In this document: in pieces, positions 2 to 8,735 of the stretch
Position numbering within the stretch: the stretch's first letter is position 1
Layout: each line of letters begins with the position of its first letter
DNA from: a bacterium
GTDB taxonomy: Bacteria > UBP6 > JAFGXH01
Reading direction: 5' to 3'
DNA length: 8,735 bases
Assembly: GCA_027064085.1 (NCBI GenBank)
Contig: JAMOQH010000116.1
Location: forward strand, 1-8,735
Program-made: the position numbers and the translations under genes
Notes under the pieces: model-generated
Databases searched by the model: none
Told to the model about the DNA's origin: nothing
Seen by the model: the letters and a program-made list of their open reading frames with translations, nothing else

Positions 2-820
2 TTAAAAGAATTTAGAAAAGATTTACTTTGGAGTGTTAAACTCAAAGGTAATAAAATTTATTTTTATATTCACATAGAATTTCAATCAATACCCGATAGG
101 AAAATGCCTTTTAGATTTTTAATTTATGATAGCTTATTGCATATTGATATACTAAAAAACAGAAATAAGAATAATAAAGATAAAAAATTACCATTTATTT
201 TGCCTATATTATTTTATATAGGAGAGAATAAGTGGAATTTTGAATTTGATTTAAGTAAGTTAATAGAACAACCATTTGATAATGCAATAAATTATATAGC
301 TAAATTTGATATTTATAAAATAATGTTAAATGAAAAGAGTTTAAAAGACTTAAAAATGATAGATAATTTATTGAGTAATATTTTAGCTACGGATAATAAA
401 GAAATAAATCAAGAAGACTTAGATGAAATAATATTAAAAATAAAGCAAATATTATCAGGTTATGACAAAGAAAAAGAATTAATAATGCTTGATAAAATTA
501 ATAAATTTGTTAAATTAATATCAAGTGACAGAATAGATATTAAAGAAGCTCTGAAAACTTTAAATCAGGAGGATAAAATGGGTGGAATGATGAAACTAAT
601 TAATGAAATTGAAGAAAGAGGAGAAAAAAAAGGTATAGAAAAAGGTAAAATAGAAGGTAAAATAGAAGGTAAAATAGAAGGTAAAATAGAGGGTAAAATA
701 GAAACAGCAATTGAGATGTTAAAAGATGGTGCTGAAATTGCATTTGTACAAAAATATACTAAATTACCTATTAAAAAGGTTAAAGAATTACAAAAAGAGT
801 TAAATATAAAAAATAATTAA
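2..820 (+). CDS. rpn: Rpn family recombination-promoting nuclease / putative transposase (YhgA-like, PD-(D/E)XK), 5'-truncated by window edge
   Basis: The frame is open from base 2, so the ATG at 104 is internal and the true start lies upstream. In the 272 visible residues, residues 7-10 read DLLW and residues 25-29 read IEFQS. The Asp and the E-x-Q (Glu codon 77-79, Gln codon 83-85) are the active-site pattern of the Rpn/YhgA-like (Transposase_31) PD-(D/E)XK nucleases, followed by the usual D-R-x-M-x-x-R stretch. By comparison with E. coli RpnA, where this Asp is near residue 63, roughly 50-60 N-terminal residues are missing. The C-terminal third is a charged helix with GKIE repeats and an amphipathic tail. 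Family knowledge: Rpn proteins cleave DNA and the full-length forms are toxic and can act against phage. Despite the transposase label there are no terminal repeats or target duplications in view. An internal start (see the entry at 578) suggests this is the long, toxic form (RpnL). The family call is firm; the role is inferred. Confidence 0.9.
   Translation, partial: LKEFRKDLLWSVKLKGNKIYFYIHIEFQSIPDRKMPFRFLIYDSLLHIDILKNRNKNNKDKKLPFILPILFYIGENKWNFEFDLSKLIEQPFDNAINYIAKFDIYKIMLNEKSLKDLKMIDNLLSNILATDNKEINQEDLDEIILKIKQILSGYDKEKELIMLDKINKFVKLISSDRIDIKEALKTLNQEDKMGGMMKLINEIEERGEKKGIEKGKIEGKIEGKIEGKIEGKIETAIEMLKDGAEIAFVQKYTKLPIKKVKELQKELNIKNN
567..572 (+). promoter_or_regulatory. Internal ribosome binding site AGGAGG inside rpn
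   Basis: AGGAGG sits five bases before the in-frame ATG at 578. It is formed by the codons CAG-GAG in an N-Q-E-D motif. The other Gln codons visible in this gene are all CAA, and the second N-Q-E-D motif of the same protein (near 406-420) is written CAA-GAA. The synonymous choice that creates the ribosome site is therefore unusual for the gene, which suggests selection for internal initiation. Confidence 0.7.
578..820 (+). CDS. rpnS: Predicted internally initiated C-terminal protein RpnS (putative antitoxin), 80 aa, nested in frame within rpn
   Basis: An ATG at 578, in the same frame as the enclosing rpn gene, is preceded by a perfect AGGAGG at 567-572 with a 5-nt spacer. This is as strong as the ribosome site of the lipoprotein gene at 1056. 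The product begins MGGMMKLINEIEERG, continues through five GKIE repeats and ends with a helical tail LPIKKVKELQKELNIKNN. It lacks the nuclease domain entirely. In E. coli, Rpn genes encode such a separately translated C-terminal protein (RpnS), which dimerises, carries a variable number of four-residue repeats and blocks the toxicity of full-length RpnL. The position, size and four-residue repeats here match that arrangement. Direct observation: start codon, ribosome site, frame and repeats. Inference: that it is expressed and neutralises the long form. It could alternatively be a chance Shine-Dalgarno-like sequence. Confidence 0.7.
   Translation: MGGMMKLINEIEERGEKKGIEKGKIEGKIEGKIEGKIEGKIETAIEMLKDGAEIAFVQKYTKLPIKKVKELQKELNIKNN
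644..703 (+). repeat. Five tandem 12-bp units encoding GKIE repeats
   Basis: Five consecutive 12-bp units GGTAAAATAGAA occur at 644-655, 656-667, 668-679, 680-691 and 692-703; the fourth ends in GAG. Each encodes Gly-Lys-Ile-Glu, and the preceding G-I-E-K looks like a diverged unit. The units are in frame with both the long and the short rpn product. Because the unit is a multiple of three, gain or loss of copies keeps the frame. In E. coli Rpn proteins, four-residue repeats at the equivalent place lie in the dimerising helix and vary in number between strains. Confidence 0.95.
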
Positions 821-2825: not shown

Positions 2826-3830
2826 TTATCTAATTTCAACATTCTTAAAAAAGTATTTTATAATTTCTTTATAATTCATTCTTTGGTTTGCTAGTAAGAT
2901 TGCTTCTTTTATGCAAAAACCTACATTATGACCAAAGCCACTACCTTTTATTAGGTAATATGTTTTAAATTCTTTTATTGTAAATACATTTGACTTTATT
3001 TTATTCCAACCTAAGTTTTGATTTATTTTTCTTCTAAAATTTTCTCCATTTTTAACACAGCCATTTTTTAAAATAAGTTTATTTATAGCATTTTTACCAA
3101 CTATCCTTATTAAATCTTTTTTTGATAATTTATATTGCCATTTATCTAAAACAGAGTTTAATTTTTTACCTTTTAAATAAGGATAAGCCTTATTCCATAT
3201 TGTTTCAGAATCACAGGTATATTTTCCACAAGAAGAACTATATGGTGTAATTGCAAGGGTATTATGATAATATATTTTTTTATGAAATAATCCCCGTTCA
3301 TGTCGTAGGGGTGAATTTCTGTATTCACTCCTTGAATTCCCGTGTTTGCAACTATTGTGTTTTTTACTTATATAATATAGTTGACAATGTGCAATATCAC
3401 AAAAATCAGCACCGATTTTTTTGTGTCTTTTTAAATGAGTCAAACTATAATTTTTGATAATAAGATAAAACGCTTTTAATGCTTCAAGAGGTATTTTATC
3501 TATATCTTCTATCTCGGAGTTTAATACCCCTAAAACATAATCATTTAGTTCTAGTTTTTGAAATAAAAATAATTTGTCATTTATTTTCCTTATAAAAAAG
3601 CTACCATTTAATTTTCTTTTTATATTTTTTTTACCTGAATATCTTTTATTTTTAAAATTTACAAATATTTTAACACTTGAAACTCGAGGTAATTTGTAAT
3701 ATGGAGCTAAAAGATTTTTTTTATTTATATTAACAACCTTTTTACCTGATTCGGTAATTGCAATATTTTCTATATTGTATTTTGAAAATAAATTAACAGT
3801 TACCTGTAAAAAGATAACAATAAAATACAT
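2826..3830 (-). CDS. SpoIID/LytB domain protein, putative peptidoglycan lytic transglycosylase
   Basis: The 334-residue product is close to the length of B. subtilis SpoIID. Residues 93-120 carry the family core L-x-L-N-D-Y-V-L-G-V-L-N-S-E ... P-L-E-A-L-K-A; Glu106 corresponds to the catalytic Glu of SpoIID transglycosylases. Residues 144-150 (CDIAHCQ) match the C-x-x-x-x-C-Q-x-Y segment. Together with His136 they resemble the His/Cys zinc site known in C. difficile SpoIID. The closing segment G-S-G-F-G-H-N-V-G-F (296-305) and Y-K-E-I-I-K-Y-F-F (320-328) fit the family's G-x-G-x-G-H-x-V-G and final helix. The N-terminus (2-14) is hydrophobic but has no basic n-region, so export is uncertain. 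The start is fixed by an in-frame TGA just upstream; ATG overlaps the stop of the gene above (TAATG), implying coupled translation. The usual G-M-x-Q-x-G-A after GHxVG reads F-C-I-K-E-A, so the copy is divergent. Denuded-glycan cleavage is inferred from the family. Confidence 0.8.
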   Translation of the reverse strand: MYFIVIFLQVTVNLFSKYNIENIAITESGKKVVNINKKNLLAPYYKLPRVSSVKIFVNFKNKRYSGKKNIKRKLNGSFFIRKINDKLFLFQKLELNDYVLGVLNSEIEDIDKIPLEALKAFYLIIKNYSLTHLKRHKKIGADFCDIAHCQLYYISKKHNSCKHGNSRSEYRNSPLRHERGLFHKKIYYHNTLAITPYSSSCGKYTCDSETIWNKAYPYLKGKKLNSVLDKWQYKLSKKDLIRIVGKNAINKLILKNGCVKNGENFRRKINQNLGWNKIKSNVFTIKEFKTYYLIKGSGFGHNVGFCIKEAILLANQRMNYKEIIKYFFKNVEIR

Positions 3831-5812: not shown

Positions 5813-6601
5813 TTAAATCTTTTTAACTTCTGAATTTTTAACCCAACCAATATTGCCATTTGGTAGAGTTATTTGATACCAATTTTCTCTTTCATCTGTA
5901 ATTTGAACTTTTAAACCTTCGTGAATTTTGAAAATCTTTTTATATTCTTCGTCTGGACCATCAATAACATTTATTTCACTAACAACAGCAACTCCTAATT
6001 TAACTTTGTTAACAGAATAATAATTACCAACAATTAAAATAAAATTAAACAATGCAATTAAAGAAAATAAAATTGTTAGAAATGTATATGAATTTGATTT
6101 TAATTTATTAAATTTTTTCATGATTAAAATAAACCAAATAAATATCCATAAAAGTATAAAAATATAAATTAACATAGATGTTGATAGTGCTCTTAAGAAA
6201 TTATAAATTTCATTAACTCCTGCCATTTCAGCTTTGCCAGATTCATTTATGATTTTGTCTATATTTTTTTTATTGACTAACTTTAAGTTGTATTCTGCAT
6301 TGTTATTGTTAGGATTCAAAAATAAGGATTTTTCATAATAAAGTATTGCATAGCCAAATTTGTTCAATTTTGCATATGAATTTCCTAAATTATAATATAA
6401 TGAAGAGCTTTTATAGTCATTTTCTTCTATTAATTTATATGATTTTAAAGCTTTTTGATATTCACCTCTTTTATATAAGTTATTTGCTTTTTTAAAAATA
6501 TTATTAAAGTTATTATTTGCAGTTAATAAATTAGGTAAGAATATAAAAAATATAACAAAATATTTAAATCTATAAAATTTTTCTTTTTTTATTTGATTCA
6601 T
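5813..6601 (-). CDS. batE: BatE-like aerotolerance operon protein (TPR and SH3 domains)
   Basis: The 262-residue product has a basic N-terminus and a hydrophobic signal or anchor at 12-28. TPR repeats span about 32-98 (A-N-N-L-Y-K-R-G-E-Y-Q-K-A-L ... L-Y-Y-N-L-G-N-S-Y-A-K-L-N-K-F-G-Y-A-I-L-Y-Y-E-K-S-L-x-L-N-P). Two transmembrane helices lie at about 142-161 and 171-192. A C-terminal bacterial SH3 domain occupies about 200-262 (N-V-I-D-G-P-D-E-E-Y ... L-K-V-Q-I-T-D-E-R-E-N-W-Y-Q-I-T-L-P-N-G-N-I-G-W-V). This TPR-TM-TM-SH3 order is that of BatE. Its ATG overlaps the batD stop (TAATG), and GAGGTG (6606-6611) stands four bases before it. Bat proteins are membrane or periplasmic proteins first linked to oxygen tolerance in Bacteroides; their biochemical role remains unclear. 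This is the last gene of the unit in this window. Confidence 0.88.
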   Translation of the reverse strand: MNQIKKEKFYRFKYFVIFFIFLPNLLTANNNFNNIFKKANNLYKRGEYQKALKSYKLIEENDYKSSSLYYNLGNSYAKLNKFGYAILYYEKSLFLNPNNNNAEYNLKLVNKKNIDKIINESGKAEMAGVNEIYNFLRALSTSMLIYIFILLWIFIWFILIMKKFNKLKSNSYTFLTILFSLIALFNFILIVGNYYSVNKVKLGVAVVSEINVIDGPDEEYKKIFKIHEGLKVQITDERENWYQITLPNGNIGWVKNSEVKKI

Positions 6602-8382
6602 TATTCACCTCTATTTATATTTTCTATAATATTTCTTATTAAATTAATAGATTCTTTTTTATCTTCTGGACTTACTTCTACATTTGAATATCTAATATAT
6701 TGACTATTTTCTAAAGTATCAGTAAGTCCTTTTATATATTGCTCTTTAAGATTTTTTTCTTCTAAAAAAATTGCAATTTGATTAATAGTTAATCCTTTTG
6801 CTAAAATAGAAAACTTCTCCTCAATATAGCTTATAATTATAGAATGTAATTCTCCATATAATTCTTTAGTAGAAGGATTTTTTTTATCTAAGTTTTTGAG
6901 TGAGTTTATAGCTTTTTTATAAGCGTTTTTCATTAATAAGATGTCTTTATTGCTTATATGTTTATATCTTTGTTTAAAATATATGTATATAACAAAATAT
7001 AGTATAGGGAATAAGAATATAATAATAATTAAAATGCTGTAATCTAATACATAGGATTTATTTTTAATTAAATTACCTGGATTATCAGATATGGGTTTTA
7101 AAAAAACAGATATTTTATGATTATTATCTTCATTTTTATTTATTTTTTTATTATTGCTGTTATTATTTGAGTTATTAGAACTATTTGCTTTTCCTGTAAC
7201 TATAATTTCTAAATCTTTATAATCTATAGTTCTATATTTCTTAGTTTTAGGATTGAAATATTCAAATTTTAAATCAAAAGATTTAAATTTACCTGGCTTT
7301 TTGGCTTTTAAGGCAACTGATATAGATTTTTCTCCTTTAATTATTCCTTTATTAGTGATATTAACGGTTTCTGTTGGCTCATATACTTTAAAGTCTTTTA
7401 TATTTTTTAATTTAGGTAAAGTAACATTTTTAATATTACCCCTTCCCTTTACCTTCATATTAATTGTGAAAGGTTCATTTACTTTTACTTTATTTTTTGA
7501 AACAGAAACAGAGAATGAGTAGTTACCAATATTCCCACTAGGGAAATTTTTTGGCTTTCCTTTTTCTGGTAAGGGTTCCACTTTTAATTTTACTAAATTA
7601 GAAGTCCTTCTATATATTTTATTTGGAGATGCTCCAAAAGAAAATATATCTGATTTAAATTTTGCTTTAAATGGAGGAAGAGTTAGTTCACCCTCTTTTA
7701 TTGGAAACAAGGCCATTCTTGCTAATGGTGTAACTTTAAAATAATATCCCTTATAGATTTTTCTTTTACTTCTTCTAAAATTAGTTGTATCTAATTCTTC
7801 AAGCCAGAAATTCTTATAAGAAGGAATTACTGGCTGTTCTGCAAAATCAACATCAACTCTATGATATAATTCATAAGTAACAATTACTTGTTCACCTATT
7901 GTTACCTTAGACTTATTTACTTTTGCTACAATAAACAACTCTGTATCAAATGGATATTTGTAATCATCCTCTGTTACATTACTTATATCTTGATTTGACT
8001 TTGTTATATTTAATTTAAGAGTATTTGAAACAAATAGCCTTCCACGACTTTTTATCCTGATTGGACCCACTTTAGCAGTTCCAACTTTTAATGGAATATA
8101 ATTTAACTGATATGTCATTGTTGTAGTGCTTGAAGAAACCCCATTTATATATTGATAGTTTTGCATTGTGGAAGTTAACGGAGTACCTGTTAATTTTAAA
8201 TTCTTAACATCGGGCATATCATCAAGTCTGATTGTATGATCTGCTACAATTTTAACAGTAATATCAACAGTATCGTCAAGAGAATAAGTTTTAGAAGTTG
8301 AAGTGATTCTAATATATTGTCTAGCTCTAGCATATAAAAGATTAAATGAAATTAATATAAGTAAAATAACAATTTTTTTCAT
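6601..8382 (-). CDS. batD: BatD aerotolerance protein
   Basis: The chosen start is the ATG at 8382 (593 residues); a GTG at 8391 in frame would add three residues and overlap the preceding gene's stop. It begins MKKIVILLILISFNLLYARA, a clear signal peptide. Numbering below includes those three extra residues. Repeated beta-sandwich regions match the BatD family: about 25-130 (with Y-Q-Y-I-N-G-V-S-S-S-T-T-T-M-T-Y-Q-L-N-Y-I-P and V-G-P-I-R-I), about 150-275 (V-A-K-V-N-K-S-K-V-T-I-G-E-Q-V-x-V-T-Y-E-L-Y), and about 290-400. An Asn-rich linker (403-424) leads to a transmembrane helix (about 449-472) and a cytoplasmic helical domain of about 120 residues. The large periplasmic and small cytoplasmic parts are the family pattern. 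It lies two bases after the batC-like gene and overlaps batE by one base, so the three are almost certainly cotranscribed. Confidence 0.9.
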   Translation of the reverse strand: MKKIVILLILISFNLLYARARQYIRITSTSKTYSLDDTVDITVKIVADHTIRLDDMPDVKNLKLTGTPLTSTMQNYQYINGVSSSTTTMTYQLNYIPLKVGTAKVGPIRIKSRGRLFVSNTLKLNITKSNQDISNVTEDDYKYPFDTELFIVAKVNKSKVTIGEQVIVTYELYHRVDVDFAEQPVIPSYKNFWLEELDTTNFRRSKRKIYKGYYFKVTPLARMALFPIKEGELTLPPFKAKFKSDIFSFGASPNKIYRRTSNLVKLKVEPLPEKGKPKNFPSGNIGNYSFSVSVSKNKVKVNEPFTINMKVKGRGNIKNVTLPKLKNIKDFKVYEPTETVNITNKGIIKGEKSISVALKAKKPGKFKSFDLKFEYFNPKTKKYRTIDYKDLEIIVTGKANSSNNSNNNSNNKKINKNEDNNHKISVFLKPISDNPGNLIKNKSYVLDYSILIIIIFLFPILYFVIYIYFKQRYKHISNKDILLMKNAYKKAINSLKNLDKKNPSTKELYGELHSIIISYIEEKFSILAKGLTINQIAIFLEEKNLKEQYIKGLTDTLENSQYIRYSNVEVSPEDKKESINLIRNIIENINRGE

Positions 8383-8384
8383 AT

Positions 8385-8735
8385 CTACCACTCTTTTCCA
8401 GAAGAATCTTCATCAGTAAAATCACCATTGTACATTAAATCATAAAGTTTTAATGATTTATTATTTTTTTCTAAATTTTTCAACATTCTTTTTTCTTCCT
8501 TTGATAAATTATCTTTTTTATCCTTTGGACGAGTCGACGCCTCGTCCTTACTTTGGTCTTTTTTCTTATTATCTTTATCTTTCTTTTCTTTATTTTTATT
8601 GTCCTTTGGACGAGTCGACGCCTCGTCCTTACTTTGGTCTTTTTTCTTACTATCTTTATCTTTCTTTTCTTTATTTTTATTGTCTTTTGGACGAGTCGAC
8701 GCTTTGTCCTTACTTTGGTCTTTTTTTTCTTTATT
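8385..8735 (-). CDS. 3' end of the preceding Bat-operon gene, probably a BatC-like TPR protein, with repetitive Lys-rich tail
   Basis: On the minus strand a frame is open from the window edge (8735) to a TAG at 8385-8387, giving 116 visible codons. Visible residues are an extremely charged Lys/Asp/Glu/Asn region made of 27-residue repeats (K-D-Q-S-K-D-E-A-S-T-R-P-K-D-N-K-N-K-E-K-K-D-K-D), then a non-repetitive end, E-E-K-R-M-L-K-N-L-E-K-N-N-K-S-L-K-L-Y and a terminal D-E-D-S-S-G-K-E-W. An R-x-L-L-x-x-L-E segment and a final K-[DE]-W are typical endings of TPR-containing Bat proteins (BatC, or BatB fused to TPRs). The position two bases upstream of batD agrees with the order batB-batC-batD-batE. 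The TPR or VWA part lies outside the window, so BatC versus a BatB-TPR fusion cannot be decided. Reading frame and stop are certain; identity is inferred. Confidence 0.65.
   Translation of the reverse strand, partial: NKEKKDQSKDKASTRPKDNKNKEKKDKDSKKKDQSKDEASTRPKDNKNKEKKDKDNKKKDQSKDEASTRPKDKKDNLSKEEKRMLKNLEKNNKSLKLYDLMYNGDFTDEDSSGKEW
8522..8735 (-). repeat. Tandem array of 81-bp in-frame repeats (two full copies plus a partial third)
   Basis: Units begin at 8522, 8603 and 8684 with an exact 81-bp spacing; the third runs off the window. Copies 1 and 2 are nearly identical (for example Asn versus Ser at 8568-8570 and 8649-8651). The period is 27 codons, so copy-number change keeps the frame. 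Each unit has a GC-rich palindromic block followed by a Lys-rich AT-rich block. Confidence 0.95.
8527..8709. repeat. GC-rich 21-bp palindrome, three copies (8527-8547, 8608-8628, 8689-8709)
   Basis: On the plus strand each copy reads GGACGAG, then TCGACGC, then CTCGTCC: perfect 7-bp arms around a 7-base loop containing GTCGAC overlapping the left arm. Fifteen of 21 bases are G or C, in sequence that is otherwise mostly A/T. The third copy has TTTGTCC as its right arm, breaking two pairs and changing Glu to Lys. In the coding direction it gives D-E-A-S-T-R-P through codons GCG, TCG and CGT, which are rare in the neighbouring genes. Confidence 0.9.

Follow-up and report, generated by a model that had tools for sequence, protein, structure and literature searches.

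In E. coli, the RpnA and RpnB systems consist of a nuclease toxin, RpnL, and an inhibitor, RpnS, that is nested within the same gene (Zhong et al. 2023, PMC10327210; PDB entry 7TH0). The internal start of E. coli RpnA has been verified experimentally (Zhong et al. 2023, PMC10327210), and, besides those of E. coli, a nested Rpn antitoxin has been shown for one gene of C. difficile (PMC10327210). Here we describe a gene of the same type in the window, by which we mean the whole stretch of DNA analyzed, the 8.7 kb at the start of contig C116 in a 3.65-Mb, AT-rich genome assembled in 195 contigs (G+C content of coding sequences, 27.5%).

The rpn gene and its surroundings

The first gene of the window (2–820, plus strand, 272 aa) is of the RpnL type, with a PF04754 nuclease, a repeat helix and a C-terminal HTH-like domain. 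It matches PF04754 with an E-value of 3e-20 and 73.1 bits (curated cut-off 21) and the Rpn family TIGR01784 with an E-value of 9.6e-16 and 58.4 bits (curated cut-off 52.1). In a 20-sequence family alignment, its residues Asp-7 and Glu-26-Phe-Gln-28 align with the invariant Asp-67 and Glu-86; by codon arithmetic, this D...E-x-Q site spans 20–85 on the plus strand, with the aspartate codon at 20–22 and the E-x-Q codons at 77–85. The preliminary description, made from the letters of this DNA, had called an Rpn-family nuclease with an intact D...E-x-Q site, and both family and residues are as it said, but it overlooked that the 5′ end of the gene is absent. Compared with the complete paralogue L058, approximately 60 N-terminal codons lie beyond the contig edge, and contig C116 starts within the gene, which leaves the reading frame open at the 5′ end. 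The close paralogues L058 and L060 are both complete at this end.

Within the gene, the sequence tcAGGAGGataaaATGggt places a Shine-Dalgarno (SD) motif AGGAGG (567–572, plus strand) 5 nt upstream of an in-frame ATG (578–580), from which a nested RpnS-like reading frame (578–820, plus strand) runs for 80 codons plus a stop; the motif, the spacing, the ATG at 578 and the length of 80 residues, given already in the preliminary description, were confirmed in the window sequence. The nested frame contains 5.2 copies of a 12-bp tandem repeat (642–703, plus strand), translated into four-residue GKIE units that lie in the first helix of RpnS, and it ends in a three-helix, HTH-like domain (695–817, plus strand, limits approximate), a predicted specificity domain assigned from a structural model and from profile and fold matches. 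We consider it highly probable that this single frame specifies two proteins, an RpnL nuclease and an RpnS tail that acts as its nested inhibitor.

Profile annotation of the window found no defence genes among the neighbors of the rpn gene. The neighborhood is ordinary, with a BatE/BatD-like gene pair adjoining thiolase and gamma-glutamylcyclotransferase-like genes (5813–8391) and a lipoprotein that is rich in cysteine, contains EGF-like repeats and weakly matches the PPC domain at its C-terminal end (1056–2825). A SpoIID-domain gene carries the palindromic GGGGTGAATTTCTGTATTCACTCC (3303–3345), which keeps the frame and occurs once in the genome. The gene beside batD holds an 81-bp tandem repeat (8509–8726) with the G+C-rich palindrome GGACGAGTCGACGCCTCGTCC, for which we found 22 matches in the genome with up to two mismatches (on contigs C24, C56, C72, C80, C122, C138, C154 and C192) and 0 for its reversed control. 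This palindrome looks like a REP/RPE-type element within a coding sequence.

The tail and its nuclease-deleted copies

The tail of the window gene matched RpnA-S-type tails in profile-profile comparison with hhalign at 95.1% (E = 3e-8). The AlphaFold model of the tail had a mean pLDDT of 69, with the last 40 residues at 74–87, and a Foldseek search of 350,542 PDB chains with this model returned 7TH0, E. coli RpnA-S, as the top match (probability 0.96, TM score of 0.83 on the target, r.m.s.d. of 1.7 over 44 residues, with a weak E-value of 1.2). Small folds of the HTH kind are widespread. Alignment with VIA-align again gave 7TH0 first, with a Z score of 6.7. The RpnA-S match was obtained solely by profile-profile and fold comparison; searches of PDB sequences with phmmer and hmmsearch, using the window sequences as queries, gave no relevant match. 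As judged from these profiles and the predicted model, the window tail is homologous to RpnA-S and is a three-helix bundle with a repeat helix. In the full-length model of L058 (pLDDT 77), the internal start, at residue 253, falls inside a low-confidence linker (residues 251–261) between nuclease and tail; a fold search with this model gave no Foldseek match below an E-value of 0.001, and several nucleases were among the weak hits.

The repeat number varies among the paralogues, the repeat region ranging from 24 to 60 residues, and nuclease parts are often 93–98% identical in DNA where the tails are 66–78% identical; for L058 and L064, the values are 98 and 72%, respectively. Tail and repeat number thus change faster than the nuclease, in keeping with known Rpn systems, in which the specificity part, with its tail and repeat number, varies rapidly (PMC10327210).

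Three copies in the same genome, L071, L072 and L074, lack 116, 156 and 209 codons, respectively, between direct repeats of 9–11 nt. The deletions take out both catalytic residues and are in frame in all three cases, and each copy retains the promoter, the first start, the internal start and the tail. From their sequences, these copies look like solo tail genes. Separate rpnS genes occur in E. coli (Zhong et al. 2023, PMC10327210), and solo tail genes therefore have a precedent, although those of E. coli arise by duplication and those described here by internal deletion.

Tail-like sequences were also seen in phages. A prophage-like IMG/VR contig (L196, 2203–3619) has an rpn gene rich in repeats; a second ORF behind it duplicates the tail in a free-standing, rpnS-like form, with a smaller number of repeats and an unchanged context of the internal ATG. 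Apart from L196, the phage search for free-standing RpnS-like decoys gave no convincing locus. Two small PHROG families without an assigned function, phrog_5416 (66 aa) and phrog_12274, match the window tail (578–820). Proteins of this kind, carried by phages, might serve as Rpn decoys or inhibitors.

Could the small protein be made and yet be no antitoxin, serving the nuclease instead as an extra subunit or DNA-binding partner, or regulating its own gene? The tail does resemble HTH and Trp-repressor-like domains, and in Cas10d/Cas11d an essential subunit arises by internal initiation (cited in PMC10327210). The E. coli homologues, however, prevent toxicity, nuclease activity and induction of the SOS response (PMC10327210), and copies that have lost the nuclease and kept the tail suit a free-standing inhibitor better than a subunit. 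We regard such a non-antitoxin role as improbable and retain the nested inhibitor as the preferred reading.

Conservation of the internal start

To set a chance level, we scored the pairing energy with the anti-SD sequence at 2021 internal in-frame ATG and GTG codons in 271 other ORFs of the same genome (391 kb in 20 stretches), with a threshold of -10.2 kcal/mol. Only 2 of the 2021 codons reached this value or better, among the 271 ORFs a single one had a site of this strength in the C-terminal portion, and approximately 5% of ordinary gene starts reached it. The window site scores -10.3 kcal/mol, and most paralogues score -12.2 to -12.3. By this measure, and by the comparison of copies described below, the AGGAGG-N5-ATG of the window gene is not there by chance. 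A synonymous-codon shuffle of the window gene alone was not significant (p = 0.20), because its Glu-Asp residues themselves favor GGAGGA, and most other genes taken singly behaved likewise. We replaced the single-gene shuffle by a wobble test among paralogues and an alignment-column test, and the evidential weight lies on the comparison of paralogues and homologues. A scan for intragenic promoters gave 12 hits against 9.5 expected, none of them above chance, and the mRNA at the internal site was barely more open than at other ATGs in most copies.

A protein search of the genome gave 26 matching places, of which 24 were examined. About 20 of these loci form one close rpn family of dispersed copies. 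Near-identity among the copies interrupted the assembly, and many of them therefore run off a contig end. All 17 paralogues that cover the site have kept both AGGAGG and a start codon. When 20 paralogues were aligned by codon, 30 columns contained Lys, Glu or Gln exclusively; NAG codons make up 19% of the usage across them, and just two columns have NAG in every member. These two are the SD codons (17/17 each). At the first, the residue varies (Lys in 6, Glu in 6, Gln in 5) and the wobble G is constant. In one paralogue, L060 (73% identical), the methionine is replaced by a valine encoded by GTG, with AAGGAGG retained; in the wider comparison, the same change has occurred in a second lineage, L098, and L132 has TTG at this place. 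A fixed wobble G with a varying residue, and GTG in place of ATG, point to selection on the ribosome site rather than on the protein. On this codon evidence, the internal start is preserved by selection at the nucleotide level and not merely via the protein. The promoter TTGCAC-17-TATACT is also conserved before the long start in 9–10 copies.

The PF04754 relatives came from 386 genomes chosen by relatedness, mostly of other families and phyla, to which we added E. coli RpnA and RpnB, one plasmid Rpn and one Arsenophonus plasmid Rpn; iterated profile searching was used to gather the ORFs, a few of which are divergent and possibly not PF04754 proper. For each ORF, the strongest SD with ATG or GTG in the last 150 residues was chosen without reference to the alignment. 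In 52 of the 64 PF04754-type ORFs, this start lay within three alignment columns of the internal start of E. coli RpnA, and some of the exceptions have a weaker start or TTG at the RpnA column (L132, L148). After clustering at 50% identity, approximately 22 of 31 clusters, by hand count, have the start within that distance. The SD occupies all three codon phases (11, 9 and 4 clusters) and is therefore translated variously as Glu-Asp, Glu-Val, Gly-Gly or Arg-Arg. The alignment of homologues that had been proposed as a check on the internal site thus found it kept both among the paralogues and, in most of the relatives from distant bacteria, at or near the RpnA column. This bears out the generality beyond E. 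coli put forward in the preliminary description, although that was already known from C. difficile (PMC10327210).

AGGAGG-ATG could instead be a by-product of protein conservation in an E-D-x-M linker motif, with no small protein made, since Glu-Asp codons readily yield GGAGGA and the shuffle of the window gene is not significant. Against this, the codon before GAG encodes Lys, Gln or Glu and yet is always NAG, although NAA is approximately five times commoner; the SD of other families lies in another codon phase and is translated as EV, GG or RR; and the methionine itself gives way to a GTG-encoded valine or to TTG. We hold a mere by-product to be highly improbable.

The sister branch PF12784 behaves differently. 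The genome of the window has at least 9 usable PF12784 ORFs, with best internal-start energies of 0 to -3.4 kcal/mol, and an internal SD with a start was found in none of 9 paralogues; overall, 4 of 28 sampled PF12784 ORFs reach -9 kcal/mol or better. Some PF12784 members carry a closely similar repeat-plus-HTH tail and yet the site is absent, so the tail by itself does not bring an internal start. The suggestion that the nested arrangement is ancient and general accordingly stands for the PF04754 branch and falls for PF12784. A wider proposal, plausible but short of probable, is that the PF04754 branch has had the internal start since its ancestor and kept it by selection, that PF12784 lacks it, and that some of the copies without a nuclease (L071, L072 and L074) are maintained as resident immunity genes needing the tail alone.

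On another view, these genes are mobile nucleases in decay ("Transposase_31") that recombination has dispersed, and they form no functional toxin-antitoxin pair here. This would suit the roughly 20 dispersed copies, the several fragments (L077, L078) and an assembly broken at many copies, but is very improbable given invariant active-site residues, a promoter and both ribosome sites conserved across copies, and three large deletions that all keep the frame.

Proposed mechanism and comparison with known systems

The nested RpnL/RpnS layout proposed in the preliminary description is upheld by the nucleotide-level conservation of start and SD, by the alignment with the E. coli RpnA start, and by the homology and fold of the tail. 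RpnL would begin with a DNA nuclease of the PD-(D/E)XK type, continue through a linker and a helix lengthened by the repeats, and end in a small HTH-like domain. Ribosomes would also initiate at ATG 578 to give the 80-residue tail, RpnS, which, by analogy with E. coli, may be made in excess over RpnL and would most likely use its repeat helix to bind the identical tail within RpnL. Pairing would block DNA cleavage and hold the nuclease inactive; phage infection or some other signal would then set RpnL free. For the antitoxin and phage-defence roles in the source organism, we infer from E. coli.

Nested Rpn antitoxins being known, what this analysis adds is the selection at the nucleotide level, the near-absence of the site in PF12784 and the three in-frame nuclease-deleted copies. 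The sequence evidence that the internal start is kept by selection across distant bacteria is independent of expression. Wobble fixation, together with SD conservation irrespective of phase, offers a simple test for other genes-within-genes, and the PF12784 contrast predicts which Rpn-like genes should escape nested self-inhibition.

Like E. coli RpnA and RpnB, the window gene has the PF04754 nuclease with its D/E-x-Q residues, an SD with an in-frame start codon that falls in the homologous column, and a three-helix tail whose first helix carries four-residue repeats. It differs in protein identity (20–27%), in the length of the tail (80 residues here and 49 in E. coli), in the presence of approximately 20 copies in one AT-rich genome, in a stronger SD, and in the retention of nuclease-deleted copies. 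The PF12784 (PDDEXK_2) branch of Rpn/COG5464 has the nuclease superfamily in common, and in some members a similar tail, and differs in the near-absence of the internal site. The C. difficile rpn gene, compared here through its published description, is alike in that this distant bacterium, too, produces RpnS by initiation within the gene (PMC10327210).
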